This document shows, piece after piece, positions 33,263 to 51,541 of a DNA stretch of 64,000 bases. A model generated the notes under the pieces. That model did no database searches. It saw nothing but the letters and a program-made list of their open reading frames with translations, and was not told the origin of the DNA. The stretch's first letter is position 1. Each line of letters opens with the position of its first letter. A program made the position numbers and the translations under genes. Source of the DNA: Sphingomonas flavescens (GTDB lineage: Bacteria > Pseudomonadota > Alphaproteobacteria > Sphingomonadales > Sphingomonadaceae); contig NZ_CP133016.1 in assembly GCF_030866745.1 (NCBI RefSeq), positions 1,302,001-1,366,000 of the forward strand. The letters run 5' to 3'.

Positions 33263-33294
33263 TTATGTCCGCTTTCGACCCATTGCGGACATTA
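33263..33294. repeat. palindrome copy 1 (forward)
   Basis: The unit is a ~31-bp palindrome: left arm AATGTCCGC, a 12-base asymmetric loop (TTTCGACCCATT or TTTCCACCCATT) and right arm GCGGACATT, flanked by T/A so that the outermost bases give TAA on each strand. 'Forward' means the pyrimidine-rich loop is on the plus strand. Here the left end reads TTATGTCCGC. It lies ahead of the gene at 33318. Confidence 0.9.
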
Positions 33295-33317
33295 GCGCTC
33301 ACTCTAAACTGGCCTTG

Positions 33318-33734
33318 ATGAGGACGATGCCGGTGCGTGTATGGCTGTTACTTGTGTTCTGGTCGGGCGCTGCCTTTGCTTCGCCTCAACACGTGCAGCA
33401 AAGCTGGCACTTACGCCCGACTGCGAAATCTCCGTATCGAGCCACGCTCACCGAGGACACTTACAACTTCGGAGAGAGCAACCGGTTCAGCCTGCGCATT
33501 GATGCATCACCTTCGAATGGAGATAACGGCTGGTTCTATGAGGGACCGCTTGAAGCTGGTGGTGCTGTGCATGCGCCCAAACCGGAGCTTGTCTGGACCT
33601 CCTCAACCGACCTCCTGGTGACGGTTCACACCGCCGAACTCGAAGGGAAAACGGTCAGACGATTTGGGGGTAATGGGCGTCCCAGAGGATCAGTCACAAT
33701 CCGCTACATCCCGCACGGTCCGTCCATTTATTGA
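33318..33734 (+). CDS. small secreted protein, unknown function
   Basis: The 138-residue product has a signal peptide (basic start, hydrophobic 'WLLLVFWSGAAFA', cleavage near residue 20) and a mature region with no known domain. It is predicted to be periplasmic. The base composition is visibly less GC-rich than in flanking chromosomal genes. The stop TGA at 33732-33734 shares its last base with the ATG of the next gene, so the two are coupled. Confidence 0.65.
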   Translation: MRTMPVRVWLLLVFWSGAAFASPQHVQQSWHLRPTAKSPYRATLTEDTYNFGESNRFSLRIDASPSNGDNGWFYEGPLEAGGAVHAPKPELVWTSSTDLLVTVHTAELEGKTVRRFGGNGRPRGSVTIRYIPHGPSIY

Positions 33735-34069
33735 TGTCCGCTTTGGAATTAGGCTTGCTTGGACTAGGTCTCTTGGCGGCAACGGTCATTCTCATGTCGA
33801 TATTCGTGGGTTTTGCGACGGCGGTAATCTGCGCAGTCGTACATTTGACGCGTATTGGTGAAAGCTTGCCGAAAGTGAGGCTTGCGGTGGTGAGCAGCGC
33901 CGTTCCCTCAATCATGATTGCTCGAATTATCTATGTTGGAGATCGGCATCCCGACCCACCAACGGACATGTGGCCAATGCCAGTCTATTGGGCTTTGCTT
34001 GCGTGCCTCATCGCTTGGTTGGTCAGCATCTGGGTAGGTAAGCGGATACTTCTGAAGCCGAACGGATAA
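33734..34069 (+). CDS. small polytopic membrane protein, unknown function
   Basis: The 111-residue product has three or four hydrophobic segments, so it should be an inner-membrane protein. The start ATG lies inside ATGTCCGCTTT, an 11-base remnant of the island palindrome, so the protein begins M-S-A-L because of the repeat. Its stop TAA at 34067-34069 is the left outer end of palindrome copy 2. It is coupled to the upstream secreted protein by TGATG. Confidence 0.6.
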   Translation: MSALELGLLGLGLLAATVILMSIFVGFATAVICAVVHLTRIGESLPKVRLAVVSSAVPSIMIARIIYVGDRHPDPPTDMWPMPVYWALLACLIAWLVSIWVGKRILLKPNG

Positions 34070-34097
34070 CGTCCGCTTTCCACCCATTGCAGACATA
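34066..34097. repeat. palindrome copy 2 (forward)
   Basis: It reads ATAACGTCCGC, loop TTTCCACCCATT, GCAGACATA. The TAA in its left arm (34067-34069) is the stop codon of the gene at 33734. The right end is degenerate (ATA for ATTA). Confidence 0.9.
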
Positions 34098-34121
34098 CCA
34101 CTTTAGTCCCACTGGGCCGGT

Positions 34122-34325
34122 GTGAGCGGATACGAGCCACCTACGTTGCGTGACGCATTCCGCGTCTATGCAAAGTTTTGTCAGATGATCGTGGAGCCGA
34201 CTCTTATCGCCGCGGTGCTCCTTTTTTTCGGAGCCGAATGGTGGTGGTTTGTTGGTCTGCTCGTCCTCTGGCTTCCCTTGGCCCGCGTGAGGCTACAGGA
34301 GCTGCGCGACGAATTAAGCAGGTAA
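34122..34325 (+). CDS. very small membrane protein
   Basis: The 67-residue product has a central hydrophobic run ('IAAVLLFFGAEWWWFVGLLVLWLPL') that could form one or two spans, followed by a basic, amphipathic tail (RVRLQELRDELSR). The start is GTG at 34122. No family recognised. It lies between palindrome copies 2 and 3 and converges with the gene at 34348. Confidence 0.5.
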   Translation: MSGYEPPTLRDAFRVYAKFCQMIVEPTLIAAVLLFFGAEWWWFVGLLVLWLPLARVRLQELRDELSR

Positions 34326-34347
34326 GGGTCGACCCAAAGCTAATTCC

Positions 34348-34851
34348 TCATTTGATGTGTTCGCGACAGTCACTCGCAGCGAGAACATAGTCAGCGAACC
34401 ATACTCGGCTCTTGCCGTTTCCATGCTCCCAATCGCCGGCCTCGCAACGGCTGTAGCCGTGACCGACCATGTATTCGGTGATCAGCGTTTCCCCGTAGGT
34501 CCAATCGAGCGCAAACCCACCGCCTATGATCAAAAGTACGGGCAGCAGTGATTTGGAACGCGACGAAAGGTCAATCCAGACGCCAGTCACGCGCGAGAAA
34601 CCAAAAGCCATGACCCAGATCACAAGTATAAAAGGGAGCGTGAGGCCGTTCTTATCGACATCCACAACTGGCCTCGAACCAGCCGCCAGAAGGGCTGAGA
34701 TTATCGAAAAAATTCCGCCCCGCTCAGTGAACCAGGACAGGAGATCCAAAAGGCAGAACACACCCAGAATGAGGGCGCCAAAAAGCAAGTGTGCGGACCT
34801 CGAACCGCCCAAGTCTTCTGGCTCATCCTGATCCGCACGATACCCTGTCAC
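34348..34851 (-). CDS. multi-span membrane protein, unknown function
   Basis: The 167-residue product has about three or four hydrophobic segments ('LLFGALILGVFCLLDLLSW', 'LPFILVIWVMAFGF', 'LLPVLLIIGGGFAL') and a soluble C-terminal part with two cysteines and 'YMVGHGYSRCEAGDWEHGNGKSRVWFADYVLAAS'. This C-terminal piece looks structured. No family recognised. The likely GTG start at 34851 is 25 bases downstream of palindrome copy 3; the longer frame runs backwards through that copy and gives the repeat-derived 'CNGWKADI' peptide, so it was rejected. Confidence 0.6.
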   Translation of the reverse strand: MTGYRADQDEPEDLGGSRSAHLLFGALILGVFCLLDLLSWFTERGGIFSIISALLAAGSRPVVDVDKNGLTLPFILVIWVMAFGFSRVTGVWIDLSSRSKSLLPVLLIIGGGFALDWTYGETLITEYMVGHGYSRCEAGDWEHGNGKSRVWFADYVLAASDCREHIK

Positions 34852-34875
34852 GACTAGAGGTGACTTACGGCGGGC

Positions 34876-34906
34876 AATGTCTGCTTTCCACCCATTGCAG
34901 ACATTA
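34876..34906. repeat. palindrome copy 3 (forward)
   Basis: It reads AATGTCTGC, loop TTTCCACCCATT, GCAGACATTA. The TTA at 34904-34906 is the complement of TAA, the stop codon of the minus-strand lipoprotein gene that begins at 35401. It is also 25 bases upstream of the minus-strand start at 34851. Confidence 0.93.
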
Positions 34907-35401
34907 AGGTGTTTCAGGGGGCGGCTCCGGCAAAAAGGTTGCACGTTCGACACGAAGGTCGTCGATGCGCTCGACATCGAAGACATAAGGCATGTCGTCC
35001 AGGTTAAGTGCGGCGTCTGGCGGAACGGGGCCTGACTGCACCTGACCAGTTCTCTTGCTGAGCGTCCCCGTGAACCGAGCGCTGAAGTCGGTCGCACGAC
35101 TACCGCCTGCTAAGATGTCCCGGAAACCTTGTGCGTTCCCTTTCTGCTTATCGGCCAACTCCACCTCAAGTGACGGCGTGAAGCGTGGTTCAATCAGCGT
35201 TTGGGGACACTTTCCAGAACCTATTGCCGATCCAGCAAAGCCGATCGCACCGTACCATCCCATTATCGTGACCTGTTTTCCGAGCAGGGCAGGTGCGTCC
35301 CGCAGAGCTTCGCATACGTTCACGTCATGACGTTCGTCGGATCGTGAGCAAGACACCGTCACAAGGAGAAGCAGGGCGGTGAATGATCGTTTGAGGCGCA
35401 T
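34904..35401 (-). CDS. small lipoprotein, unknown function
   Basis: The 165-residue product has a lipobox at VTVSC-S (about residues 15-19) and a mature region with two further cysteines and a central hydrophobic-aromatic part ('VTIMGWYGAIGFAGSAIGSGKCPQTLIEPRF'). The N-terminal mature part recalls OB-like folds but no family is clear. The stop TAA (34906-34904) is the outer end of palindrome copy 3. The ATG at 35401 was chosen because it starts the signal peptide; the longer frame crosses copy 4. Confidence 0.65.
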   Translation of the reverse strand: MRLKRSFTALLLLVTVSCSRSDERHDVNVCEALRDAPALLGKQVTIMGWYGAIGFAGSAIGSGKCPQTLIEPRFTPSLEVELADKQKGNAQGFRDILAGGSRATDFSARFTGTLSKRTGQVQSGPVPPDAALNLDDMPYVFDVERIDDLRVERATFLPEPPPETP

Positions 35402-35433
35402 ACGCGATGATGTGCACGGTTTCGACGTAGCGC

Positions 35434-35464
35434 AATGTCCGCTTTCCACCCATTGCGGACATTA
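35434..35464. repeat. palindrome copy 4 (forward)
   Basis: It reads AATGTCCGC, loop TTTCCACCCATT, GCGGACATTA, the best-preserved form with a perfect 9-bp stem. It lies 32 bases beyond the start codon of the minus-strand lipoprotein gene and 23 bases before the next plus-strand gene. Confidence 0.95.
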
Positions 35465-35487
35465 GCTGCGGCCCGCATCATGCCCAG

Positions 35488-35967
35488 ATGAAGGAACCGC
35501 CAAGTCCCTGTTGCTGCCGATCTCTGCCTGATCTGGCCGCAGTGCCGATGGGCGGCGATGGTCTCGATGAGCGAGTGTTTGGCACCGTTAAGAATGTGAT
35601 CGACCATGGGGGAGATGCTTGGTGGCTGCACTTGTCGCAGTGCCGGACCTGCGGTCAGCATTGGATGATTGCTCAAGAAGAACGCATCTTCGATGAGCAC
35701 TTCCTACGGCGATTGACTGACGATGAAGCTAATCACATCTCCATCAATGCCGAATGGCCGAGCGAGTTTCTCAGCTACGAACGGGTGCTCAAGACTGGAC
35801 ACGCGCTCGGCATTCGTCCTTGCATTTTCTTAGAGCGTCTCTCTCCGTCACTGGTGTGGACTGCGGAAGATCTACGCAAGGAGCGACCCGACATCTCAGT
35901 CGAAGAAGTTGCGCTTCTGCTCGGCGTCACCGTGAAGCAAGCTACCCGCCTTCTCAAAGCTGCGTAG
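35488..35967 (+). CDS. hypothetical protein with CxxC and C-terminal HTH-like segment
   Basis: The 159-residue soluble protein has a CCC cluster near residues 8-10 and a possible zinc site CRTCGQHW (about residues 52-59). The C-terminal segment 'DISVEEVALLLGVTVKQATRLLKAA' resembles a helix-turn-helix. No signal peptide is present, so it differs from its envelope-type neighbours. It could be a small regulator. The TAG stop at 35965-35967 directly abuts palindrome copy 5. Confidence 0.6.
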   Translation: MKEPPSPCCCRSLPDLAAVPMGGDGLDERVFGTVKNVIDHGGDAWWLHLSQCRTCGQHWMIAQEERIFDEHFLRRLTDDEANHISINAEWPSEFLSYERVLKTGHALGIRPCIFLERLSPSLVWTAEDLRKERPDISVEEVALLLGVTVKQATRLLKAA

Positions 35968-35994
35968 GTCTGCTTTCCACCCATTGCAGACACT
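35966..35994. repeat. palindrome copy 5 (forward, worn)
   Basis: It reads GGTCTGC, loop TTTCCACCCATT, GCAGACACT. Both outer ends are degenerate (the left AAT and right ATT are altered) but the stem core GTCTGC/GCAGAC is perfect. It sits between the stop of the plus-strand gene (35967) and the stop of the minus-strand gene (36001). Confidence 0.9.
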
Positions 35995-36000
35995 GAAAAA

Positions 36001-36321
36001 TTACCTCGCGTCCCACGTCACTACGTCCACGATCTTTCCGGCCTGTTGCAGAGTGAGAATAGCAGCGCCGGTGCATTTGTAGGGAGCCGTCTGATCGAAC
36101 ACGACAACAGCTCGTTTGGTCGTCTCACTCCGCGCCACGGCCAATAGCTGTTGCTGATGCACTGTCATGAATTTCGGCGGCTGGACATTAGATGGTCGCG
36201 CAAAGGCCACGCGGCATTCGTCGTCCCGCGCTCTAACACTCACGACTAGCGGTGGCTCGCTATTGTTGAAACTGGCGCAACCGCAGAGTGCGAGAACGGC
36301 GGCGGTTAGCAATGATCTCAT
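36001..36321 (-). CDS. small lipoprotein, unknown function
   Basis: The 106-residue product has a lipobox ALCGC-A (Cys at about residue 15). The mature region contains two more cysteines, one in 'RDDECRVAF' and one in 'YKCTGAAIL', and 'AVVVFDQTAPYKCTGAAILTLQQAG'. No family recognised. The stop is 7 bases from palindrome copy 5. The longer frame starts with the repeat-derived 'MSAMGGKR' peptide in copy 6 and was rejected; the ATG at 36321 starts the signal peptide. Confidence 0.6.
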   Translation of the reverse strand: MRSLLTAAVLALCGCASFNNSEPPLVVSVRARDDECRVAFARPSNVQPPKFMTVHQQQLLAVARSETTKRAVVVFDQTAPYKCTGAAILTLQQAGKIVDVVTWDAR

Positions 36322-36357
36322 TTGCCAACACTGCCGAGAATTGCCCCTCCACACCAG

Positions 36358-36386
36358 TATTCGCTTTCCACCCATTGCAGACATTA
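36358..36386. repeat. palindrome copy 6 (forward, left end worn)
   Basis: It reads ATTCGC, loop TTTCCACCCATT, GCAGACATTA. The left arm has lost GTC, so the stem is partial while the loop and right arm are intact. It lies between a minus-strand start (36321) and a plus-strand start (36411), so here it is in a divergent promoter region rather than at a 3' end. Confidence 0.85.
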
Positions 36387-36410
36387 GCGCCCAGTGTCAG
36401 CTTCCCGCCG

Positions 36411-36815
36411 ATGAGCCGTTTTCTACTTCTGGCAATTGTGGCCTTTGTCGCGGAGGGATTTGGTCCGCCTGCCGCGCCGAAGTGCGACCGAAGTTTTCAG
36501 CAACACAGCGTATTCCTCTTTAGCACTCCCGAACAACGTTACCTCTTCTTCAAAACCGATCCTCGACTTCCGATTGGTTTCGACGTCGAACAAAATCAGG
36601 CGTTCGCCGAGAGGATAGAACGCGTCTTTCGTAGCAAGGTAGGTCGTGACCAAGGTGTGGAAGCCGTCGTCTGCGGGCGACTTGAGCCCGTTGACCTTCC
36701 GCTATCACCCTACGGTCACTATCTCGTCATCCGCCAAGCCTCATTCGTGCGAACGGTCGATATGACCACGATGATTCGAAACTATCGGAGAGCGATTGGT
36801 AGTTCCGAGCGGTAG
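36411..36815 (+). CDS. small secreted protein, unknown function
   Basis: The 134-residue product has an N-terminal signal-like stretch 'FLLLAIVAFVAEGFG' and a mature region with cysteines at about residues 25 and 88, which could pair. No known domain. The ATG at 36411 is the first start after palindrome copy 6; the longer frame passes through the repeat. The stop TAG is 20 bases from copy 7. Confidence 0.6.
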   Translation: MSRFLLLAIVAFVAEGFGPPAAPKCDRSFQQHSVFLFSTPEQRYLFFKTDPRLPIGFDVEQNQAFAERIERVFRSKVGRDQGVEAVVCGRLEPVDLPLSPYGHYLVIRQASFVRTVDMTTMIRNYRRAIGSSER

Positions 36816-36835
36816 AGCATGCCGCCTATGTCCAA

Positions 36836-36866
36836 ATGTCCGCTTTCCACCCAAACGCGACATTAG
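36836..36866. repeat. palindrome copy 7 (forward, mutated loop)
   Basis: It reads AATGTCCGC, TTTCCACCCAAA, CGCGACATTA. The loop end and one right-arm base differ. A further half-copy AAGACATTAGCCG lies at about 36888-36899. The two mark the right-hand end of island 1, just before the chromosomal bufferin operon. Confidence 0.88.
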
Positions 36867-36936
36867 CGCCCACCGGCTTCTGACCAACTAAGACATTAGC
36901 CGCTGCTCGCGAGCGACGAAGGCGCTTGCGACGGCT

Positions 36937-37395
36937 TTATGGAATGCGCAGCATTCGGTCGAGCGCCAGCCGGCCCCCGCCAAGAGCAATGAGCGGGAGC
37001 AATAGACCGGCCCAGCTCAGGTGCGTCGGCCACGCATCGGGGTAGACGAAGATTTCGATGACCGACGTCATCACCAGCAGCGCCGCCGCCGAGATGCGAG
37101 TGAACAGCCCGAGCACGAGCAGAATCGGGAACAGGTGCTCGCTGTACGTCGCCGCGTAAGCGGCAGTCACCGGATCGACGAAAGGAAGCGCATAGTCGGT
37201 CCTGAACAGCTCGAACGCACTGTCGTTGATAGTGAGGATCCCGTCGACCTTGGTCCGGCCGGACATGAAAAACACGGCGGCGATGCCGAGACGCTGCACG
37301 AGCAGTAGGAGCGACGGCGGAAGCAGCGTCCGCGCCGTCGATTCCATGAGGTCGAACGGAGCGCGCCACGCCGGGCGCATCACTTCGGTGTTCAT
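36937..37395 (-). CDS. DoxX family protein of the bufferin/gig operon
   Basis: The 152-residue membrane protein has four hydrophobic segments and the DoxX pattern '[19 protein letters not shown]', '[31 protein letters not shown]' and '[18 protein letters not shown]'. DoxX proteins often accompany redox or RiPP pathways, here the fourth gene (gigT-like) of the DUF2282-DUF692-DUF2063-DoxX cluster. The ATG overlaps the stop of the DUF2063 gene by 4 bases, so it is co-translated. It may supply redox equivalents or help membrane association of the pathway. Confidence 0.9.
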
Positions 37396-38120
37396 AGCGG
37401 GTTCCTTTCAGGCGAACGGGGGATGAAGGCCCCGAGGTTGACGAGAGCGCCAAAGAGCGCGTCGGCATGATCTTGCGGGTAGAGGCGGGCTGCGGCGGCG
37501 ATCGCCTGGCCAACCGTTTCGCCGAGGCGGATTCCCGAAAGCAGGCGATGCGCGGAACGGCTCATCCGCGGCGTGTGCATGATTTCGTGCCGCGGGCGTG
37601 CGAAGAGCGCGCCTTCGTGCTTCCATTCCGGCGCGAGCTCCGACGGAACCGTGCCCTGATGGGCGAGCCAGATCGTCATTGCCGGCGTCGATAGCCATGC
37701 GAAGCTAAGCGCCGGATGAAGCGCCAGGCGGAGATCCGAAGGATCGTCACCGAGCTCGCTGGCAGTGACCGCCTGCGCATCCGCGGCCATCAGGCTTTCG
37801 ACGTACAGCCGCTCCACTCGCGCAACGTCAGGCACGTATGGCACATCGTCGATCCAGGGCTGATGCTGGAGCCATTCGGCGAAGCGAGCGCCGTACAGCG
37901 CGAGGACGGGTTGCCGCGGCGGGCATTCAGAGGCGTGATCGACCGCCGCGGCCTCGAACATCTCGTCGCCGAGGATCTGCGCGACGATCGGAAAATTGGC
38001 GCGCAGGGCTTCGACGGCGCCTTGAAGCACCGTGTTGCGGTAGACCGCCATGGGTCCGGTCGCCGGCGCGTCCAGCGCAGCCGCGAAGTCACGCTGAAAA
38101 GCGATGAGGTCAGGCTGCAA
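37392..38120 (-). CDS. bufC: BufC/HvfC-type DUF2063 protein
   Basis: The 242-residue protein matches the DUF2063 (HvfC/BufC) family, the RiPP-precursor-recognition partner of MNIO enzymes: '[15 protein letters not shown]' at the N-terminus, '[33 protein letters not shown]', '[11 protein letters not shown]' and '[23 protein letters not shown]'. The probable start is a TTG at 38120, overlapping the bufB 3' end by 11 bases; no ATG is available upstream. It presumably binds the BufA1 leader and presents it to BufB. Confidence 0.9.
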
Positions 38121-38937
38121 GGGCGAAATCTCCCATCAGCAGTGCCTGGGCGCGTTCGCGCTCGGCAAGCAGGTCGGCGAAGGGCGGAATGTTGCCGTCG
38201 CGCTCGATCAGCGTCGGCCGCGCGCCGATCCGCTCGATGAAGCGCGCATAGAGGTCCCACACCGCTTCGCTGACCGGCTGATCGTGGCTGTCGATCAGCA
38301 GCGTGCCTTCATCGTCGAGCGTGTGCCCGGCAAGGTGAATTTCCCCAACATAGTCGCCGGGAATCGCCTCGAGCCAAACGGCGGCGTCGAAGCCGAGGTT
38401 GTGAGCGCCGACGACGATGTTGTTGACGTCGATCAGCAGCCCGCAGCCGGTGCGCCGCGCAAGCTCGCAAAGGAAACTCGTCTCGCTCCAGCTATGGTCC
38501 TGGAGCGACAGATAATGCGTAGGGTTTTCAATCAGGATCGGGCGTCCGAGCGCGTCCTGGACACGGCCGATGTTCGCGGCGAGGCGCGTCAGTACGGCGT
38601 TGGTACGGGGTACCGGCAGAAGGTCGGGAAAGCAGCGTCCGTCGAGCCTCGACCAGGCTAGATGCTCGGAGACGAGCTGCGGGTCGAACCGGTCGACCAG
38701 CCGCTTCAACGCGGCGAGATGGTCCGCATCAGGTTCCGCCGGTCCGGCAAGCGACATGCCGACGCCGTGAAGCGACAGCGGGCGTTCGCAGCGGACCGTC
38801 TCGAGCATCGCGAGCCGCGGACCGCCGGCGACCATGTAATTTTCAGCGTGGACTTCGAACCACAGACCCGCCGCCGGCGCGGCGAGCGCGTCCGAAAGAT
38901 GCTCGGCCTTGAAGCCGACACCGGCAGCGGGAAGCAT
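38110..38937 (-). CDS. bufB: MNIO (DUF692) RiPP-modifying enzyme BufB
   Basis: The 275-residue protein belongs to the multinuclear non-haem iron-dependent oxidase family: 'AGVGFKAEHLSDAL', 'WFEVHAENYMVAGGP', 'LSLHGVGMSL', 'VSEHLAWS', 'LIENPTHYLSL', 'GLLIDVNNIVVGAHNLGFD' and 'IHLAGHT' carry the His, Asp, Glu and Asn iron ligands. In characterised bufferin systems this enzyme converts cysteines of the precursor to thiooxazoles. The ATG at 38937 is 3 bases from the precursor stop. Operon with the precursor and BufC. Confidence 0.94.
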   Translation of the reverse strand: MLPAAGVGFKAEHLSDALAAPAAGLWFEVHAENYMVAGGPRLAMLETVRCERPLSLHGVGMSLAGPAEPDADHLAALKRLVDRFDPQLVSEHLAWSRLDGRCFPDLLPVPRTNAVLTRLAANIGRVQDALGRPILIENPTHYLSLQDHSWSETSFLCELARRTGCGLLIDVNNIVVGAHNLGFDAAVWLEAIPGDYVGEIHLAGHTLDDEGTLLIDSHDQPVSEAVWDLYARFIERIGARPTLIERDGNIPPFADLLAERERAQALLMGDFALAA

Positions 38938-38940
38938 GGC

Positions 38941-39219
38941 TCAGCGCCCGTTGATCGGGGTGAGGGAGCCGGCGCCCTTGGGCGTCTTGATCGACGTGCA
39001 GGTGCCCTTGGCGACGTACTTCCAGGCGTTGCCTGCATAATCCTTGCGCGACGTTCCCGCGCAGGTCGTGCCGGCGCCAGCGGCGCAGTCGTTCTTGCCG
39101 GCGAGGGCGACGCCGAAGCACTTGTCCTTTTCGGGCTGCGGCTTGACCGGGCCTGCCGATGCGGCTGTCGAAGCCAGGGCGGCGACCGCACCAGCCATGA
39201 CGATGTTGCTGATCTTCAT
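38941..39219 (-). CDS. bufA1: BufA1-type RiPP precursor peptide (DUF2282), bufferin
   Basis: The 92-residue product has an N-terminal signal peptide ([20 protein letters not shown], cleaved near SAG) and a mature part with exactly four cysteines at residues 34, 45, 53 and 74, in 'DKCFG', 'NDCAAG', 'TTCAGT' and 'GTCTS'. This is the DUF2282/BufA1 pattern; such peptides are exported and bind copper after cysteine modification. The ATG at 39219 is supported by AAGGAG eight bases upstream; a GTG at 39228 is inside the ribosome-binding site. First gene of the operon, divergent from the LysR gene. Confidence 0.92.
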
Positions 39220-39411
39220 CTGGAACACTCCTTGAATGCGTGTGCGCGCGGCGTCCTTCGGCCGCGCGGGGAATTATCCCGCAGACGCAGCACGGGGTCA
39301 CAGTCCGAGACAGCATGGGTTCGATGCGCAGGACGCATTGTGCGACCGCTGGCGAGTCCTATTCCGAAGGTGTAATGATGAGCTTTGCACCAGCTGGTGG
39401 GGGGAACCGCC

Positions 39412-41882: not shown

Positions 41883-41980
41883 GGACGAACTCCGGTGAGC
41901 GAAAGAGGGGCATCCCGCCGGGGGCACGGCGGGATGCCAGGGGTGCCGGCGAATGGGAGGGAGCGCGCCGGCGGGGGAAC

Positions 41981-42427: not shown

Positions 42428-42675
42428 CAGGGTCTCCTTGAGTGAAAAACTTGGCTGTCGCGAAAGCCGGACTGCAGGATGCGAGGGACTTTTCCTTCGA
42501 TCTCCCGTGCGTCATCGGCTGAGGAGCCGGCTCTCGCGACGCCCTTTCAAAATGCCGCCGCCCAACCTCGCGCGGAAATCCCAAGGCCGCATGATGTCCA
42601 TGCACGAAACGCATTTCCACTGAGCGCCCCGGACCCGCATCCTTTGGTTTCATTCTTATTCAGGAGAGCTCGAAC

Positions 42676-43500: not shown

Positions 43501-43508
43501 TTCTTCTC

Positions 43509-44807: not shown

Positions 44808-45943
44808 AATCGCTTGCGAAGGAAGTCGCCGCCCTCGGCCAGACCGTGCTCGTTCTTCAGGGTGGCGGCGCGCTCGGCGCCTACCAGGTCGGCGTCTACG
44901 AAGCGCTTCACGATGCTGGCATCGCGCCCGAATGGGTGATCGGAACCTCGATTGGCGCAATCAACGCGTCGCTTATCGCCGGCAGCAAGCCGGAAGACCG
45001 GATCGCAAAGATGTGCGAGTTTTGGCGGCGCGTCGAGAATGATCATTTCGTCCCCGGCGGCCTTCCCGTCTGGCTCGCTACAGCAACGCGCAACAGCCTT
45101 GCAGTGAGTAGCGGCGTCCCCTCGTTCTTTAGCCCAAACCCGTTCGCGTTCATGAGCCCGCACCACCGGCTCGGCGCGGAAGCAGCCGGCTATTACACGG
45201 TCGAGCCGCTTCGCCGCACGCTCGAGGAGCTGGTCGACTTTAAATACCTCAACAGCGGCGGAACCCGCATTACCGTGGGCGCCTCCTCCGTGCGGACTGC
45301 CGAGATGCGCTACTTCGATTCCCGCGACGAGCGGATCGGCGTTGAACACATCCTCGCGTCCGGCGCGCTGCCTCCCGGCTTCCCGCCCGTCCGCATCGAC
45401 GGCGAGCTCTACTGGGACGGCGGCATCCTTTCGAACACGCCGGTCGAGGTGGTGTTCGACGATAATCCGCGGCGAAACAGCGTCGTCTTCGCGGTGCACA
45501 TCTGGAACCCGCACGGGCCGGAGCCCGAAACCATTTGGGAAGTGATGAACCGCCAGAAGGACGTTCAATATTCAAGCCGTGCGGCGGCGCATATCAAACG
45601 TCAGCGGCAGCTTCACAAGCTGCGGCATATCGTTGCCGAGCTCAGCAAGCTCATCCCGGAAGAAAAGCGCCGCGACAACCGCATCTCCGACATGGCTGCT
45701 TACGGCTGCCTGACGCGCATGCACGTGGTTCGGCTCCTCGCCCCGGCACTCGACTACGAGGACCACAGTAAGGATATCGATTTCAGCGCACAGGGGATCC
45801 GCCGTCGCAGAGAAGCGGGTTACCGCGACACAATCGAGACCCTGGAAAAAGCGCCCTGGCGCGAACCGGCCGATGAGATCGAAGGCTTCATCCTGCACGA
45901 GGCGAGTGGCGGCCGCATGGTGGAGACGGCTGCGGCACATTGA
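44804..45943 (+). CDS. patatin-like phospholipase (DUF3734)
   Basis: The 379-residue protein has the patatin Ser-Asp dyad: oxyanion motif GGGALGAYQ, nucleophile GTSIG and acid in 'YWDGGILSNTP'. The C-terminal portion matches the DUF3734 extension of bacterial patatins ('RDNRISDMAAYGCLTRMHVVRLLAP'). It should hydrolyse acyl esters. The start is taken at 44804, eight bases after AAGGA, rather than the in-frame ATG at 44798. It is coupled to the ndh gene end. Next to bdhA, a role at PHB granules or in lipid turnover is plausible but unproven. Confidence 0.93.
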   Translation: MKSLAKEVAALGQTVLVLQGGGALGAYQVGVYEALHDAGIAPEWVIGTSIGAINASLIAGSKPEDRIAKMCEFWRRVENDHFVPGGLPVWLATATRNSLAVSSGVPSFFSPNPFAFMSPHHRLGAEAAGYYTVEPLRRTLEELVDFKYLNSGGTRITVGASSVRTAEMRYFDSRDERIGVEHILASGALPPGFPPVRIDGELYWDGGILSNTPVEVVFDDNPRRNSVVFAVHIWNPHGPEPETIWEVMNRQKDVQYSSRAAAHIKRQRQLHKLRHIVAELSKLIPEEKRRDNRISDMAAYGCLTRMHVVRLLAPALDYEDHSKDIDFSAQGIRRRREAGYRDTIETLEKAPWREPADEIEGFILHEASGGRMVETAAAH

Positions 45944-46050
45944 CCCGCGGCAGCATACGCCGGGCGCATGACGATCATGCCGAAACGCGATTTCCGCAGA
46001 CGAGCGCCAGGAGCCAAGATCGGCGTCTGGTTGCAAGAAGGAGAATGGCC

Positions 46051-46572
46051 ATGGGCCACAAACTCAAGAAGCTCGATTCCAAGTTACTGGCAGTGCTGCT
46101 GCTCGCCGGCCCGGCAGACGTCGTGTCGCCGCTCGTTGCGCCTGCCAATGCGGCGCAGCCGGTTGCCACCGCACCCGCCGACGGCGTCATCAAGCAGCGC
46201 AGCGATTATCCGTTCGACGAGACGATTGCGCGCGTGAAGGCGGATATCGCCAACAAGGGCATCCGCTTCTTCGACGAGATCGACCAGATGAAACTCGGCG
46301 ACGGCGCTAAGCTCCCGATCAACCGTTCGACGCTGCTCTTGTTCGGCAATCCGCCGCTCGGCGTGCAGTTCCTACAGTCCAATCCGGTCGCGGGACTCGA
46401 TTGGCCGGTGCGCATGCTTGTCACCGAGGACACGGACGGCACAGTCTGGGTGAGCTGGACCGACTTCGGGTTTGTCGCGAAGCGGTACCAGCTCACCGAC
46501 CGGGACGCACAGATCAAAATGGCGAGCGAAGTTGCCGCCTCGATCGCGTCGGCGGCGAGGAAACAGCAATGA
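46051..46572 (+). CDS. DUF302 family protein
   Basis: The 173-residue protein has a signal-like N-terminus (residues 12-30) and a DUF302 domain: 'YPFDETIARVKADIANKGIRFFDEIDQMKLG', 'PINRSTLLLFGNPPLGVQFLQSNPVAGLDWPVRMLVTEDTDGTVWVSWTDFGFVAKRYQL'. DUF302 folds are of unknown activity. The ATG at 46051 has AAGAAGGAG about seven bases upstream. The stop overlaps the next small gene (ATGA). Confidence 0.9.
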   Translation: MGHKLKKLDSKLLAVLLLAGPADVVSPLVAPANAAQPVATAPADGVIKQRSDYPFDETIARVKADIANKGIRFFDEIDQMKLGDGAKLPINRSTLLLFGNPPLGVQFLQSNPVAGLDWPVRMLVTEDTDGTVWVSWTDFGFVAKRYQLTDRDAQIKMASEVAASIASAARKQQ

Positions 46573-46742
46573 AACCCGCCGCGCAGTCCACCCGCGGGTC
46601 TTTCGAAGGCGCGCTCCGCCCGGACCTGATCGCAATCTTTGCCTATGCGAGTCCGTGCGGCCGCACCAGCAAGTCGGTGGACGGCACGACCGGCCCTGAA
46701 GTCCACCTCAGCCGACTGGCCGCAGCCGCCCGGATGCAATGA
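46569..46742 (+). CDS. small protein of 57 residues, translationally coupled
   Basis: The product has no recognisable domain (a Cys in 'SPCGRTSK', basic-neutral). It is called because its ATG overlaps the DUF302 stop (ATGA at 46569-46572) and its own stop overlaps the next ATG (ATGA at 46739-46742), so the frame is pinned on both sides. A spurious frame remains possible, as such overlaps can arise by chance. Confidence 0.45.
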   Translation: MKPAAQSTRGSFEGALRPDLIAIFAYASPCGRTSKSVDGTTGPEVHLSRLAAAARMQ

Positions 46743-48169
46743 TCGTCACTACCCCGGGAGCCCAGGCCCCCCTTCCCCAACTCGGCGACAGGGGCGCTTG
46801 GGCGGTTCGGCTGTTGTGGGCCTCTTTTGCGCTGGTGGCCGGCTGGCTGCTCGCCGACTTGGCGATCTGGCGAACGGAACCGCTGCCGATCATCGTCCTG
46901 CAGTTTGCCAAAAGCGCGGTGCTGATCGCCGTAAGCTTCATTCTAATCAAGCGGCGCCCCCGTGACTCGGTCGCCGCGCTGCTCGCGATGACCTTCCTGG
47001 TGTGGACGATCAGCAGCAGTTTCGGCTTCCGTTCTACGGACCTGCTGCCGGTCGTGATCGACCGCATCCGCTTCGTGCTGTTCACCTTTTCGCTGCTGCT
47101 TTTCCCTGACGGCGAATGGGGCCCAGACCGGACCCGCTTCATCGCCGTCGCGACGGCAGCCACGTTCATGCTCGGCATCATCGAAGCCACGGGACTGGTG
47201 CAGACACAGGCATTCCTGCCCATGGCCGTTGCCTGCGTCCTTGCGGCGATCGGCGGCCTCATCGCCCGCTTCCGGACCGCGGAATCCGACGCGGTCCGCC
47301 AGCAGCTGAAGTGGATTGCGCTTGGACTGGTTTTGGGCGTCGGCCTGATCCTGATCGGCCGCGCGAGTGCGGCACTAACCGCTCCCGCAGGTTTACCGGT
47401 GCTTTCGGAAGCCTTGTTCCAGCTCGGCATCATTTTCGTTGCGCTCGGATTCGTCGTGTCGTTGCTACGGTACCGGCTCTATGATGCTGAGACGGCGATC
47501 AGCCGCTCGGCTGCGCTCTTCGTCCTTACGGTCGCCGTCGTCAGCACGTTCGCAGGGACCGAGGCGGCCGTCGAATGGATGGGCCAGCAATATTTCGGGA
47601 TGGGCATTGGCAGCAACATTTCGGGGGGGATTGCCGCCGGGGTGGCCGCGGTGCTTCTCAATCCATTGCATCAACGGATCAGCGAAGCGGCGGAGCACCG
47701 TTTCCAGCCTGACCTCGCCTACCTGAAGAACCACGTGCCGGAATTCCTTGAAGAGCTGTGTCTGAGCGAAGCGCCGCGCGAGGTCGCGCGCTTCTTCCTC
47801 CTCAGCGTCAACGAAGCACTCCATGCAAACTGTTCGGCGTTGCTGGGGTTCGACGAAGACGTAATCGCCGCCGTCGGCATTGCTCCGGAGCCGCTACTGC
47901 TCCAGAGTGCCGGCGAGCTGTTCCCGGTGTGGATCGAGGTGGCTTCCGTCTGCTCCGGCCGGAAGCGGCTGCTGCTCCTCGGAGGGCGCCCGGACGGCTC
48001 CTCGTTTGGGCGGGACGAGCTGGGTGCCATTAAATCCCTGCTTCCGCGGCTCCGTCGCGCGCTCGACATAAGCGATGCGGCAGAGGCTTTAAGGCGCCAA
48101 TGCCGCGCGCAGAGGCAGCTCGGACCTGATGTGCTGCAAAGCGACCCTTCAGGTAGGCTAGAAGAATAG
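46739..48169 (+). CDS. polytopic membrane protein with GAF-like C-terminal domain
   Basis: The 476-residue protein has about ten hydrophobic segments in its first ~310 residues, then a cytoplasmic region 'LHQRISEAAEHRFQPDLAYLKNHVPEFLEELCLSEAPREVARFFLLSVNEALHANCSALLGFDED' that recalls the GAF-containing N-terminal half of sensor kinases, but no kinase domain follows. The last ~20 residues ('AQRQLGPDVLQSDPSGRLEE') are unlike the rest, and the stop lies 14 bases from palindrome copy 8, so the 3' end may have been replaced. It might be a truncated sensor. Confidence 0.75.
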   Translation: MIVTTPGAQAPLPQLGDRGAWAVRLLWASFALVAGWLLADLAIWRTEPLPIIVLQFAKSAVLIAVSFILIKRRPRDSVAALLAMTFLVWTISSSFGFRSTDLLPVVIDRIRFVLFTFSLLLFPDGEWGPDRTRFIAVATAATFMLGIIEATGLVQTQAFLPMAVACVLAAIGGLIARFRTAESDAVRQQLKWIALGLVLGVGLILIGRASAALTAPAGLPVLSEALFQLGIIFVALGFVVSLLRYRLYDAETAISRSAALFVLTVAVVSTFAGTEAAVEWMGQQYFGMGIGSNISGGIAAGVAAVLLNPLHQRISEAAEHRFQPDLAYLKNHVPEFLEELCLSEAPREVARFFLLSVNEALHANCSALLGFDEDVIAAVGIAPEPLLLQSAGELFPVWIEVASVCSGRKRLLLLGGRPDGSSFGRDELGAIKSLLPRLRRALDISDAAEALRRQCRAQRQLGPDVLQSDPSGRLEE

Positions 48170-48182
48170 TCATCAGCCAACC

Positions 48183-48213
48183 AATGTCCGCTTTCCACCC
48201 ATTGCAGACATTA
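48183..48213. repeat. palindrome copy 8 (forward)
   Basis: It reads AATGTCCGC, loop TTTCCACCCATT, GCAGACATTA. It marks the left end of island 2, 14 bases after the stop of the polytopic sensor-like gene. Confidence 0.93.
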
Positions 48214-48254
48214 AGCTGGGTTGCCACGATGCCGGGCTCCTGGAGGGATGAAGT

Positions 48255-48569
48255 ATGAGCGACGAAGAGCTGCCGCCAGGATCTCCGACGCCTCATCCTG
48301 CGCAATCGACATCGGCGCGACCGAACGGCTGGCCGGTTGGCGTTCGTCCAATCTCTCTTGATGGGCTCGCACACCTAGGAGTTGCGAATGATGGATCGCT
48401 CTTTTGGGATGGCAAGCCCATTCAAGTCGCGCGGCGGTTTGATCTAAGCTTATGGCAAAAGGTTGGAGCAGTGCTGACGGTTTTGGCCGCTATAATCGGT
48501 GCGGGTGCGAGCGCAGCTTCGGCTGTTTCTGACTGGCGTGGCCCAGTCTGCACGCGCGCAAGTTCCTAA
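48255..48569 (+). CDS. small single-span membrane protein
   Basis: The 104-residue product has a Pro/Ser-rich N-terminal half with 'VANDGSLFWDGKPIQVARRFDLSLW', one membrane segment ('VGAVLTVLAAIIGAGASAASAV') and a short tail. No family recognised. The stop TAA (48567-48569) is the left outer end of palindrome copy 9. Composition is less GC-rich than the flanking chromosome. Confidence 0.55.
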   Translation: MSDEELPPGSPTPHPAQSTSARPNGWPVGVRPISLDGLAHLGVANDGSLFWDGKPIQVARRFDLSLWQKVGAVLTVLAAIIGAGASAASAVSDWRGPVCTRASS

Positions 48570-48598
48570 TGTCTGCAATGGGTGGAAAGCGGACATTA
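48567..48598. repeat. palindrome copy 9 (reverse), ends two genes
   Basis: It reads TAATGTCTGC, loop AATGGGTGGAAA, GCGGACATTA, the reverse orientation of copies 1-8. TAA at its left end stops the plus-strand gene (48569), and TAA read from the right end stops the minus-strand gene (48596). One palindrome thus supplies both convergent stop codons. Confidence 0.95.
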
Positions 48599-49006
48599 CA
48601 TGGAAAGCGTGGCCTCAGGCTCTTGATCGCACATGACGTGAACTGCTCTGTCGAATGTCTTAATCACGTAATGCCGAAAAGGCCGGTCGCTGATGGCTCC
48701 GTTCCGCGAGGTCACACGAGAGAGCCACGATGATCGCTCAACCTCTTGAAAGGGCCAAGGGTAGTTCCAACCCGCTTCCCCCATCCTCTTGATCTCAAAC
48801 GAACCGTTTTCCGCAACGTCGGAGCACTCCTCGTAGACCTTGAAAGCCTCTGGCTCATTGAACTTTAGGAGAATGTCAGGACTTTGGTTGCGAACGACTG
48901 ATAACGTCAACACTCCCCTCGCGAAACGGACTTCGACCTCCACTAATACGTCATCTGAAAGGTCGGGTAGTGGGTCCCATCGACGCCAGCATTCCTGTTC
49001 ACTCAT
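48596..49006 (-). CDS. hypothetical soluble protein
   Basis: The 136-residue protein has no signal peptide and no recognised domain: 'WDPLPDLSDDVLVEVEVRFARGVLTLSVV', 'NYPWPFQEVERSSWLSRVTS'. The stop TAA (48598-48596) is the outer end of palindrome copy 9. The ATG at 49006 was chosen because the longer frame crosses copy 10 and gives repeat-derived sequence. It may be a small immunity-like or cytoplasmic protein, but nothing supports a specific role. Confidence 0.55.
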   Translation of the reverse strand: MSEQECWRRWDPLPDLSDDVLVEVEVRFARGVLTLSVVRNQSPDILLKFNEPEAFKVYEECSDVAENGSFEIKRMGEAGWNYPWPFQEVERSSWLSRVTSRNGAISDRPFRHYVIKTFDRAVHVMCDQEPEATLSM

Positions 49007-49045
49007 CACCCGAAGGAGAGCATCAGACGTCGGCGTTGGCAACTG

Positions 49046-49076
49046 AGTGTCCGCAACGGGTGGGAAGCAGACACTA
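49046..49076. repeat. palindrome copy 10 (reverse, worn)
   Basis: It reads AGTGTCCGC, loop AACGGGTGGGAA, GCAGACACTA. Its outer ends carry C-for-T changes (ACTA), so the minus-strand stop it provides is TAG (49076-49074) rather than TAA. Confidence 0.88.
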
Positions 49077-49400
49077 GCCACTAGTGCGTTCAACGATGGT
49101 CTGGTTGTATTTCGCCGCGTAGGCTCGGGCGACGGAACGCTGTCGGCTGCATGCCTCCGTCGTTGTGTCGGACGTGCCTTCAACCATTCGCGTTTGGTAA
49201 GCATCTGCCTCGGAGACGCCCGGAACCTCGCCTGCAAATCCGCCAAGCATGAGCAAGTGTTGGTCGCCTTTCGCCAATGCCTGGCGAGCATCCGCACCAG
49301 CATCCCGATGCGCCAGCATATTGATGGTGGGGCAGCCAACCTCCCGCTGTTGGATGCAGCCAGCGAGGACTATCAATAGTACTGCGTTTGCTGCCTTCAT
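49074..49400 (-). CDS. small lipoprotein, unknown function
   Basis: The 108-residue product has lipobox VLAGC-I (Cys at residue 15), then 'VGCPTINMLAHRDAGADARQALAKGDQHLLMLGGFAGEVPGV' and 'SVARAYAAKYNQTIV'. Three cysteines are present after the lipobox. No family is recognised. The stop is the outer end of palindrome copy 10. The ATG at 49400 starts the signal peptide, 24 bases from copy 11. Confidence 0.6.
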   Translation of the reverse strand: MKAANAVLLIVLAGCIQQREVGCPTINMLAHRDAGADARQALAKGDQHLLMLGGFAGEVPGVSEADAYQTRMVEGTSDTTTEACSRQRSVARAYAAKYNQTIVERTSG

Positions 49401-49423
49401 CCGGCTACCTAATCAGCAGGGGC

Positions 49424-49454
49424 CAATGTCCGCAGTGGGTGGAAAGCGGAAGTT
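49424..49454. repeat. palindrome copy 11 (reverse)
   Basis: It reads AATGTCCGC, loop AGTGGGTGGAAA, GCGGAAGTTA. The right arm has ACATT changed to AAGTT. The TTA at 49453-49455, at and one base beyond its right edge, gives the TAA stop of the minus-strand lipoprotein gene. Confidence 0.9.
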
Positions 49455-49860
49455 AGCGAGTGGCCGCGTTGACCCGCTCCGCCACGCTCGGGTCTTCGAC
49501 GATTTTATCGATTGACGTTAGTAATAGTGTGTATCGGCTAGGACCATCAGTAACGATGTAGCCTTCGCCTCTGGCGTTGAAGCCGACCACATCCTCGCGC
49601 TCCGCCGCAAGACGCTCCAACCGCTTATATACCTTTGGAGCATCGCCTACGAAGGCGAAGGGAAGTCGCAAGCTGGGGCAAACTGCCACTTCGGCCTTCG
49701 CGCCGACTTCTCCGAAGATGATGCCTCGCAAATGCTCCTCACGGATGCGTTGGCCGACCAGCGAGCAAGCGGGCTTAGCAGCGCCCTTGTCCTCGCGGTC
49801 CTCGGAAGCCGAACACCCTAGAAGCAGGATGGCAGATGTAGCGTACAAAATGGCTCTCAT
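49453..49860 (-). CDS. small lipoprotein, unknown function
   Basis: The 135-residue product has lipobox LLGC-S (Cys at residue 16). The mature region has two further cysteines ('KPACSLVGQ', 'AVCPSLRLPF') and resembles small periplasmic lipoproteins of no known family. The stop TAA (49455-49453) coincides with the end of palindrome copy 11. The ATG at 49860 starts the signal peptide, 24 bases from copy 12. Confidence 0.62.
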   Translation of the reverse strand: MRAILYATSAILLLGCSASEDREDKGAAKPACSLVGQRIREEHLRGIIFGEVGAKAEVAVCPSLRLPFAFVGDAPKVYKRLERLAAEREDVVGFNARGEGYIVTDGPSRYTLLLTSIDKIVEDPSVAERVNAATR

Positions 49861-49883
49861 ACCGCAGGCGTCCCATATGACCC

Positions 49884-49914
49884 TAATGTCTGCAATGGGT
49901 CGAAAGTAGACATA
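49884..49914. repeat. palindrome copy 12 (reverse)
   Basis: It reads TAATGTCTGC, loop AATGGGTCGAAA, GTAGACATAA. Right arm has GTAGAC for GCAGAC. The ~180 bases beyond it (to 50095) have no supported gene but include AAAAGCGGAC, a possible degenerate repeat remnant. Confidence 0.88.
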
Positions 49915-50095
49915 AGCGGACGGTCAGTTAACGGCCAAAAGCGGACCTCGCCCATTCCGCTCGACTTAAACGAGCCCTCCTGGCCGATCAGTGACATTCC
50001 GCCTAGGCATGCGGCAGGACAGATTCGGGTCATCGAGGCTGTCGTCATTGCCTCGCGAAAGCGAGTAGCGAAGTTAGTTGTATAGGCTTGTCCCA

Positions 50096-50497
50096 TCAGC
50101 GCCCGATGGCGTGGAACTTCGTTCCGCTGATTGGCACCGCGAAGCACCCGTTTGCGGCGAGCGTGTGCTGAGCGCGGATTTGCGGCCATAAGGTGAGGAG
50201 CCGAGCCGCTTGCTTGTGGAGCGCCGACTTTTGCAAAGACGGCGCGAAGAAGAAGCCAACCAGACCGTTTCGCACGAAGAGATCGCGCGACGGCTTCCGT
50301 TTGGCGATGCGCTGGTCGGCGGAGATTACCGCCCACCCGCCTTCCGCGCCAAGCGCCGGAATCCACTCCTCATCCTTAAGATCGTGTCGACCGAACTTTT
50401 CCCGAAGGGAAACGATTTCGTCGCCATCCTCTTCAAAGATCGTGTGGAGCACGACCGCGAGCCGTGGCGGGAGGTCATTGTCGACCATCACCCTCAC
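50096..50497 (-). CDS. PIN-like toxin (DUF5615-type) of a toxin-antitoxin pair
   Basis: The 133-residue protein begins 'RVMVDNDLPPRLAVVLHTIF', as DUF5615-like PIN proteins do, with the first acidic residue of the PIN-type active site, and continues 'LKDEEWIPALGAEGGWAVISADQRIAKRK' with another Asp. PIN toxins are RNases. The ATG overlaps the stop of the upstream antitoxin gene by 4 bases (50494-50497), as in toxin-antitoxin operons. It lies inside island 2. Confidence 0.82.
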   Translation of the reverse strand: MRVMVDNDLPPRLAVVLHTIFEEDGDEIVSLREKFGRHDLKDEEWIPALGAEGGWAVISADQRIAKRKPSRDLFVRNGLVGFFFAPSLQKSALHKQAARLLTLWPQIRAQHTLAANGCFAVPISGTKFHAIGR

Positions 50498-51192
50498 GCG
50501 GTCGCCAGCCCTCCAATTTGTCGTTCGAAGGCGAGGGCATCCTTGACCGCGATTTTTCCGATTTCGAACAGCCTGGCGACACGGTCGACCGACCGGCCTT
50601 CCGCCACAAAAACTTGAGCGATGCGCCGCGTCGGAACGCCGCCGTTCTCAACGATGGGCTGGCCGAAAGAGCGTTCCGGATCGGCGACGACCTCACGGCT
50701 CTTCGCTAATGGGAACCAGCGCGTCGCTTTCTCGTCGTCGAACTCAAGGTCAAGGAACGACGCCTCAATCACTTTGGGAAACGCATGCTGTAGTGTTTTG
50801 AGGTCGATGACATCTCGATTCCCCGTTTCGCCCATGCGCTCAAGGAAGAGCCGCTTGCCGTCCGTCCGGAAGTGAGCGCTAGAAAACGGATGAGGGTCTT
50901 CGGCGATCTGCGCGGCCGTCATGAGGCAAAGCCGGATCGTCGGCATTCCGATTCCGAATTCGCGAAGCCGAGCCACGAACCGGGCTTCGATGAGGTCACG
51001 GAAACCGAGAAGCGGTTCGTCCTGGTCGATGCCGTATTGCGGTTGCCAGAGCGGCGCCTGAGCGGTCTTTGGCCCGTGATGGGCATAGCTGTAGCCGAAG
51101 AGCCAACGGCGGATATTGGTGGCCGACGTACCGACCAGCTTTCCAGCTTCTGAAGGGGTATAGGCCCCGATGCCGAACTCCGCATAATGCAT
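50494..51192 (-). CDS. DUF433-type antitoxin
   Basis: The 232-residue protein has an HTH-like N-terminal part ('YTPSEAGKLVGTSATNIRRWLFG', MerR-like) and a DUF433 C-terminal domain ('GGVPTRRIAQVFVAEGRSVDRVARLFEIGKIAVKDALAFE'), the usual antitoxin partner of PIN/DUF5615 toxins. The longer N-terminal region suggests a two-domain DNA-binding antitoxin that may autorepress the operon. The ATG at 51192 follows a longer non-homologous frame. First gene of the pair. Confidence 0.84.
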   Translation of the reverse strand: MHYAEFGIGAYTPSEAGKLVGTSATNIRRWLFGYSYAHHGPKTAQAPLWQPQYGIDQDEPLLGFRDLIEARFVARLREFGIGMPTIRLCLMTAAQIAEDPHPFSSAHFRTDGKRLFLERMGETGNRDVIDLKTLQHAFPKVIEASFLDLEFDDEKATRWFPLAKSREVVADPERSFGQPIVENGGVPTRRIAQVFVAEGRSVDRVARLFEIGKIAVKDALAFERQIGGLATA

Positions 51193-51541
51193 GCCGGCTC
51201 CCCTAGCACACGCGGGTTGAACAAAAACCCACGCGCGCTGGCGGCGCAACGCTTTTCTCCTGATTTCGCTTAGTGAGCCTTGTGAGGCGCAACGAAGGTC
51301 CGCTTTCTGGTTCTTCCGTTTCGGGCATGAGCGCCCAGGATTTGGCGGTAAGCGGTCATCCGCGCTTGACTCAGCCCCTCGCGTTTACACCGAGATGCTC
51401 TGCCGGATTTTACATAAAATCCCTTGTCATACTTCGCTCGCTTAGTCTGCTTTCGACCCATTGCGGACATTATCACTTTCATGTTCCGCTAACCGTCTTC
51501 GTTAAACTGACTTACTCGAGCTGGCGACTATTCGCCGCATC
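51193..51541. other. 349-bp region without a supported gene, contains palindrome copy 13
   Basis: The region between the antitoxin start and the HD-GYP start holds palindrome copy 13 (51443-51473) and, at about 51294-51330, a degenerate fragment GGTCCGCTTTC that resembles the left half of the repeat. The 70-residue minus-strand frame here begins with the repeat-derived 'MSAMGRKQT' peptide and is rejected. The antitoxin and HD-GYP promoters must lie here; I cannot place them. Confidence 0.6.
51443..51473. repeat. palindrome copy 13 (forward)
   Basis: It reads TTAGTCTGC, loop TTTCGACCCATT, GCGGACATTA. It marks the right-hand end of island 2, about 70 bases before the HD-GYP gene. Confidence 0.9.

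Follow-up and report, generated by a model that had tools for sequence, protein, structure and literature searches.

Near-palindromic repeats in Sphingomonas flavescens border small gene cassettes and point to an integron-like exchange system

What are the palindromic repeats that lie between small genes in a 64,000-nucleotide stretch of the Sphingomonas flavescens genome? (The stretch, "the window" below, is NZ_CP133016.1, positions 1,302,001 to 1,366,000; coordinates of features within it count from its first letter.) A sequence-only reading of the window had offered two answers: insertions akin to repetitive extragenic palindromic (REP) elements or miniature inverted-repeat transposable elements (MITEs), or boundaries of gene cassettes. 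Our analysis favors the second. We think that the repeats belong to an integron-like system that exchanges cassettes at the dyad center of the repeat, probably by means of a tyrosine recombinase of about 200 amino acids (probability roughly 0.73).

Results

Thirteen copies of a 36-bp near-palindrome

The window contains 13 copies of a near-palindrome with the consensus GCTAATGTCYGC-TTTCSACCCATT-GCRGACATTAGC. Its layout is 12-12-12, with 12-bp arms around a 12-bp asymmetric center. The weight-matrix scores of the copies range from 34.6 to 58.8, while five mononucleotide-shuffled versions of the window, each scanned on one strand, scored at best 5.9, -2.6, -4.8, -7.2, and -7.8. All 13 copies lie within a few bases of where the sequence-only reading had put them, and the orientations it gave (forward for copies 1-8 and 13, reverse for 9-12) are all correct. 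It was also right that this is a palindrome with a 12-base asymmetric loop, which agrees with the 12-bp center, but its length of about 31 bp was too short. Its claim that the repeats are confined to two clusters holds for these 13 copies, but not for a decayed 14th copy. The copies are:

33261..33296, + strand, site 1, score 57.0
34065..34100, + strand, site 2, score 44.8
34873..34908, + strand, site 3, score 55.5
35431..35466, + strand, site 4, score 57.1
35962..35997, + strand, site 5, score 41.8
36353..36388, + strand, site 6, score 47.7
36832..36867, + strand, site 7, score 34.6
48180..48215, + strand, site 8, score 55.5
48565..48600, - strand, site 9, score 58.8
49043..49078, - strand, site 10, score 41.5
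49422..49457, - strand, site 11, score 44.5
49882..49917, - strand, site 12, score 53.1
51439..51474, + strand, site 13, score 40.6
63183..63218, - strand, decayed copy outside both clusters, score 13.7 (best of five shuffles, 5.9)

Across this genome (a single contig of 2,656,862 bp), the repeat is common. A 28-base pattern, with up to 3 mismatches allowed, matches the genome 59 times, versus 0 matches for a control pattern. In the window and 16 other stretches of the genome, we found 77 copies that score above 18, in 14 clusters. (The 16 stretches comprise regions around pattern hits and also the third serine recombinase locus, which is discussed below; elsewhere, the genome was covered by the pattern search.)

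Read in reverse, the site becomes ATG TCT GCA ATG GGT GGA AAG CGG ACA, and open reading frames (ORFs) of that kind are present in the ORF list for the window. The sequence-only reading had taken the peptides MSAMGGKRT and CNGWKADI as the mark of a widespread repeat. This fits with the reverse reading and with the occurrence of the repeat in many genera (see below). In the literature that we searched (open-licence papers), there was no mention of four core stretches of the repeat or of the peptides MSAMGGKRT and GWKADI.

The repeats separate single-gene units

Over all of the loci that we examined, 523 of 556 neighboring pairs of repeats less than 3 kb apart have the same orientation (a few copies are counted twice because some of the stretches overlap). 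The median spacing of neighbors is about 525 bp. Back-to-back sites in the same orientation are also frequent, with 35 pairs at 35 bp, 10 at 36 bp, and 18 at 37 bp.

As had been noticed for the two clusters in the window, the units between neighboring repeats are mostly single genes. An ORF of at least 50 amino acids is present in 204 of 209 inter-repeat intervals of 150-2000 bp (drawn from this genome and from stretches of G004, G007, G014, G017, and G021). Among the ORFs of at least 80 amino acids, 118 of 174 are on the strand of the repeat. The cargo is diverse: among 103 cassette proteins chosen from four genomes, we found 70 Pfam families, and the commonest of these matches just 3 proteins.

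Near-identical units end at the center of the repeat

If the repeats are borders of mobile cassettes, then duplicated DNA should end inside them. When we compared the genome of S. flavescens to itself, 4 of the 71 matches listed were units that begin and end inside repeats (754 bp, 99.5% identical; 368 bp, 98.1%; 290 bp, 97.2%; and 2,356 bp, 91.3%). The remaining matches are mostly tandem repeats within genes, paralogues, and recombinase operons. Among 687 matches of at least 120 bp in the whole set of loci, 11 end in repeats on both sides and 27 on one side. In a first set of 193 loci, 9 of 581 matches were of the two-ended kind, versus about 0.07 expected by rough arithmetic, because the repeats cover about 1.1% of the bases. 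We also observed units that recur between species, including a pair that is 99.4% identical over 1,099 bp. These duplicated units strongly support the cassette-boundary reading, and it is well supported that the repeats are the border sites of small mobile gene cassettes.

Where within the site do the units end? We considered 19 unit ends with at least 94% identity. On the unit's own half-site, 14 of 305 positions are mismatched, as compared to 99 of 303 on the half that is foreign to it. Differences at position 13 are seen in 2 of the 9 right-half ends and in none of the 10 left-half ends; at positions 18-20, they are seen in 7 of the 10 left-half ends and in none of the 9 right-half ends. 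The identity switch lies between positions 13 and 18, which is the ACCC at the dyad center.

The two half-sites vary almost independently

A hairpin whose arms must pair would link many of the dyad pairs, whereas halves that are constantly exchanged would link few. In 15 of the 18 dyad pairs, we observed no significant linkage (p > 0.05). For instance, position 6 (C or T) and its dyad partner, position 23 (G or A), occur in combinations of 307, 106, 99, and 33 sites (p = 0.88, and again 0.88 with unique 36-mers only). Similarly, position 13 is not linked to the triplet at positions 18-20 (p = 0.96). Adjacent positions 19 and 20, which are in the same half, are strongly linked. The near-independence of the halves suggests that they are shuffled by site-specific recombination, rather than conserved as a hairpin.

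One genome, G014, has a different arm sequence at some of its sites. In 8 of its 64 scored sites (loci L227-L234), both arms are changed together (ATGACC/GGTCAT), as would be expected if one enzyme binds both arms.

A small tyrosine recombinase beside the repeats

The protein family that is beside repeats in the largest number of loci is a tyrosine recombinase of about 200 amino acids (10 loci, with a median distance of 43 bp; some of these loci had been fetched for other reasons). It matches PF00589 (E = 2.2e-18), and it matches the XerC, XerA, and XerD models at scores well under their cut-offs. Among solved structures, XerD is the closest to it in sequence (E = 3e-6). Its catalytic residues (R54, K82, H151, R154, H177, and Y186) show little or no variation in alignments.

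We found 11 loci in the genus with a close and near-full-length copy of this recombinase (type A). Accepting sites that score at least 16, all 11 have a + site at the left, and 9 of 11 also have a - site at the right, so that the sites face inward whichever strand the gene is on. (Two loci lack the right site, one of them because the contig ends.) The genome of S. flavescens has two close copies of the gene, at 2314742-2315350 and 1389651-1390259, within a duplicated 2.36-kb unit that is flanked by inverted repeats. The orientation of the array flips at both copies: 11 + sites are followed by five - sites at one, and a single + site is followed by eight - sites at the other. A third homologue, at 1990393, shares only 58% identity with the query, and no such repeat lies near it. 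The window itself has no recombinase gene of the type-A family. Overall, this small recombinase is probably the enzyme that joins the sites.

The repeat is widespread, and a related system is found on Pantoea plasmids

By an exact pattern scan, the repeat is present in at least 120 stretches of DNA, from genera that include Sphingomonas, Lysobacter, Dyella, Frateuria, Massilia, Ramlibacter, Brevundimonas, Caulobacter, and Phenylobacterium. There are also hits in metagenome-assembled genomes that are labelled as Nitrospinaceae, Nitrospirota, and Acidobacteria (such labels can be wrong). Viral contigs add 11 stretches. On plasmids, 53 records match the repeat at a loose E limit of 10, and most of these are just 80-90% similar.

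The wider recombinase family is very common. We found it in 66 of the 398 genomes sampled from the phylum (E 1e-25) and in 429 plasmid records (E 1e-20), and it has at least 8,000 homologues. Perhaps only some members of so wide a family serve cassettes. The flanks of the recombinase gene show inverted similarity to each other at 17 of 64 loci, as compared to direct similarity at 1. A separate observation comes from L256 (in G060), where inverted sites with a center like TTWTGGCTAAAA lie on either side of a recombinase from a different family within the order.

On a Pantoea plasmid, a homologous recombinase lies amid mostly single-gene units, whose border sites keep the arms and have different centers. 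When this array is compared to other plasmids (40 of 193 records listed), many of the matches, though not all, end at sites. In seven cases that we read closely, 12 of 13 match ends lie in a site. For example, an SDR unit is beside the integrase in the first plasmid, and a 97.6% identical unit is between LysR and NTF2 genes in two others. The Pantoea array (L283) mixes two site types, with the centers TCGCTCA and GTGCCAG, sometimes side by side.

A model for cassette exchange, and the evidence against it

In the model that we favor, each repeat would be the join between two neighboring gene cassettes, and a cassette would start, on its left, with the right half of one site and finish, on its right, with the left half of the next. 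Recombination of two sites within the ACCC would release a cassette as a circle that contains one complete site. (The circle is inferred, as is the choice of enzyme.) The excised cassette could then insert at another site, and cassettes would move singly within and between genomes. The enzyme would be the tyrosine recombinase of about 200 amino acids, whose gene sits between inward-facing sites where the orientation of the array flips. The arrays in the window might be served in trans by the two close recombinase copies elsewhere in the genome, or they might be relics.

Several results weigh against this model. Some concern the sites. Weak linkage is present at 3 of the 18 dyad pairs (p = 0.002 for 4-25 and for -1-30; p = 0.02 for 10-19). 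If G014 is left out, these three persist and -2-31 is added (p = 0.03). The excess of complementary pairs is small (0.848 versus 0.810 expected at 4-25, for instance), and the three linked pairs imply that a weak constraint on pairing or symmetry remains. Also, one of the 19 unit ends (L240/L244) has 7 own-side mismatches, which is half of the own-side total, and the switch at the center fails in both of the pairs that are 91% identical (L036/L040 and L072/L088). Among the loci that we compared, there is no present/absent pair (A-B-C versus A-C). The Pantoea cases were selected for ends that seemed to lie near repeats, and even so the right end of L319, one of the 13, does not lie in a repeat.

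Other results concern the enzyme. The window has two flips of orientation (between sites 8 and 9 and between sites 12 and 13) with no recombinase at either, and as there is no recombinase copy in the window, these flips are unexplained. Two repeat-rich genomes, G014 with 62 pattern matches and G020 with 28, gave no homologue at E 1e-25, and in G007 the gene is present only as broken pieces (L266 and L273, with a broken copy beside a repeat). These repeat-rich genomes without an intact enzyme imply that many arrays are not beside it. Within the genus, co-occurrence is only suggestive: the repeats are present in 9 of 9 genomes with type A and in 20 of 28 others (p = 0.08). The clear repeats in Dyella are oriented away from the recombinase gene. 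Finally, for 29 distant homologues in the sample of the phylum, the exact arm motif is not enriched within 1.5 kb (7 matches, as compared to 6.25 in shuffles).

Other explanations for the repeats

A different recombinase lies next to site 1. A tRNA and then a serine recombinase operon are within 30513-33139:

30792..33033, - strand, serine recombinase-DUF2924-DUF3489 operon, a neighbor that we do not think drives the cassettes

Could this large serine recombinase be what recombines the sites? Two of the three copies of the operon in this genome are directly beside an array: the second copy also borders one, and the leaders of the first two copies are conserved, with 83% similarity over a 112-bp stretch that includes the first site of the array. 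In 4 of 20 loci from relatives (G015, G025, G029, and G036), the nearest upstream repeat is within about 4 kb and has the same relative orientation. A 2-bp crossover at the dyad center would also suit the serine recombinase class. But PF07508 has no match (E 1e-5) in the repeat-rich genomes G007, G014, and G020 (39, 62, and 28 pattern matches), so the serine recombinase is not required. Also, the third copy of the operon has no matching site at its leader and no repeat in its 20-kb stretch, and no repeat is found upstream of the closest homologues, in 15 kb of sequence for the one from G025 (82%) and in only 142 bp for the one from G012 (93%). The link to this operon that the sequence-only reading had suggested is not supported as a requirement, and we think that the operon is quite unlikely to be the driver. 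Somewhat less unlikely, though still improbable, is that the repeats are passive, with the genes between them shuffled by RecA-type homologous recombination from repeat to repeat. The repeats are 36 bp and similar to each other, and arrays that lack a recombinase are common. The center is also the most conserved stretch of the site, so exchanges elsewhere in the center could not be seen. Nevertheless, the informative ends place the switch in four central bases, instead of spreading it along the site, and the copies carry many mismatches to one another. Besides, 36 bp is very short for a RecA-type pathway.

The remaining explanation is the other one from the sequence-only reading: that the repeats are REP- or MITE-like insertions, which built up in neutral islands and are not the borders of units. 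The repeats are indeed between short genes that are mostly of no known family, pairs that are back to back (35-37 bp apart) are common, and there is the weak linkage at three dyad pairs. However, a REP-associated tyrosine (Y1) transposase of the RAYT type (PF01797) was found in 0 of 8 genomes, while 5 of 14 control genomes were positive. Most dyad pairs are independent, so that the arms hardly covary; near-identical units end inside the repeats; and neighbors have the same orientation. The REP idea was not borne out, and we give it the least credence of the three.

Comparison to known systems

Integrons are the textbook case of one-step gene capture, and their parts are IntI, attI, and attC. 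Our cassette system resembles integrons and chromosomal superintegrons in its arrays of single-gene cassettes, with sites in one orientation, diverse cargo, and a tyrosine recombinase; both also have arrays without an integrase and, possibly, a toxin-antitoxin pair. In integrons, the recombinase gene is beside the insertion end of the array; here, the type-A loci have the gene beside an array (9 of 11 with sites on both sides), but many arrays lack it. The differences are that here the enzyme has only about 200 amino acids, the crossover is at the dyad center, little constraint on pairing is seen, and the recombinase can have arrays to either side. The integron integrase model TIGR02249 had no match over its cut-off in any of 8 genomes and is not among the models that match the small recombinase. 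(It weakly matches, under its cut-off, a distant type-B homologue in this genome.) The core motif of attC is not evident in the consensus of the repeat, and the scarcity of linkage between dyad partners (weak at 3 of 18 pairs) tends to point away from a folded single-stranded site like attC.

In dif modules, 28-bp dif-like sites alternate in orientation and are recombined by the host XerCD. The sites described here are instead 36 bp with a 12-bp center, are mostly direct, and are linked to a dedicated small recombinase. Two papers on pdif/XerCD modules in Acinetobacter plasmids describe genes that likewise lie between short sites, made up of paired arms around a spacer, and that are shuffled between plasmids (PMC13141974; PMC6449649). 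Since neither an integron integrase over the cut-off nor RAYT was found in 8 genomes, and since the dif modules differ in site, orientation, and probable enzyme, we describe this as an integron-like cassette system and not an integron. It seems to work like an integron yet to be distinct, with its own site and probably a different and very small enzyme.

Another comparison is to small tyrosine recombinases such as the fim invertases, which also have about 200 amino acids and a gene between inverted sites. The models for tyrosine-type DNA invertases (NF007370 and NF007371) match our recombinase weakly, but the XerC and XerA models match it better (under their cut-offs), and the repeats form cassette arrays rather than one switch.

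REP palindromes are described, in the portion of the source that we consulted, as short and as having many copies between genes in alphaproteobacteria; the CGTC REPs have stems of 8-9 bp and loops of 4-5 bp, are mostly head-to-head dimers, and have no associated transposase (PMC3733652). In contrast, our repeat has arms and a center of 12 bp each, and its neighbors are direct. No RAYT was found in 8 genomes. Br-REP1 of Bradyrhizobium is another sequence, going by the part of that paper that describes it (PMC5082802). The integron-like elements (ILEs) of Pseudomonas share the "integron-like" name, tyrosine recombinases, and cargo genes with our system, but the passages that we consulted describe three recombinases of 385, 525, and 535 amino acids and insertion in rulB with a 3-bp repeat, and those passages describe no cassette sites of the present kind (PMC4542609).

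Does the system amount to a second and independent class of gene capture? We lean slightly towards thinking so. This class would combine a minimal tyrosine recombinase of about 200 amino acids with a double-stranded, dyad-symmetric site whose center is specific to the lineage, and it would carry single-gene cassettes across the Pseudomonadota and possibly beyond. It would have gone unnoticed because the sites are annotated as spurious peptides and the enzyme simply as an "integrase." If this is true, then a separate system of site and enzyme is a new route of gene exchange, and much of its cargo has no known function.

The cassettes in the window

The genes between the repeats of the window are predicted ORFs (signal peptide and lipoprotein features were judged by eye):

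33318..33731, + strand, cassette gene, 138 amino acids, likely signal peptide, no Pfam match
34907..35401, - strand, cassette gene, lipoprotein-like, 165 amino acids, no Pfam match
35488..35967, + strand, cassette gene, 159 amino acids, no Pfam match
36001..36354, - strand, cassette gene, lipoprotein-like, no Pfam match
36411..36815, + strand, cassette gene, 134 amino acids, no Pfam match
48255..48569, + strand, cassette gene, 104 amino acids, no Pfam match
48596..49009, - strand, cassette gene
49074..49400, - strand, cassette gene, lipoprotein-like, 108 amino acids
49453..49860, - strand, cassette gene, lipoprotein-like, 135 amino acids, no Pfam match
50096..50497, - strand, PIN-domain protein (PF18478, PIN_10, E = 1.8e-24)
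50494..51192, - strand, HTH/DUF433 protein (PF04255 and PF21321, weak, just under their cut-offs)

Eight of the 10 window proteins that we tested have no match in Pfam. The other two, the PIN-domain protein and the DUF433/HTH protein, are possibly the toxin and antitoxin halves of one pair.

Directly after site 13 is an ORF (51542-52897) that looks, by eye, like an HD-domain protein. A stretch that is 68% similar to it is found at G000:C1:2307761-2308956, after the + site at 2307584 of a large array. Further along, 54546-57041 contains tandem repeats of about 276 bp (the self matches are at steps of 276), probably inside a gene.

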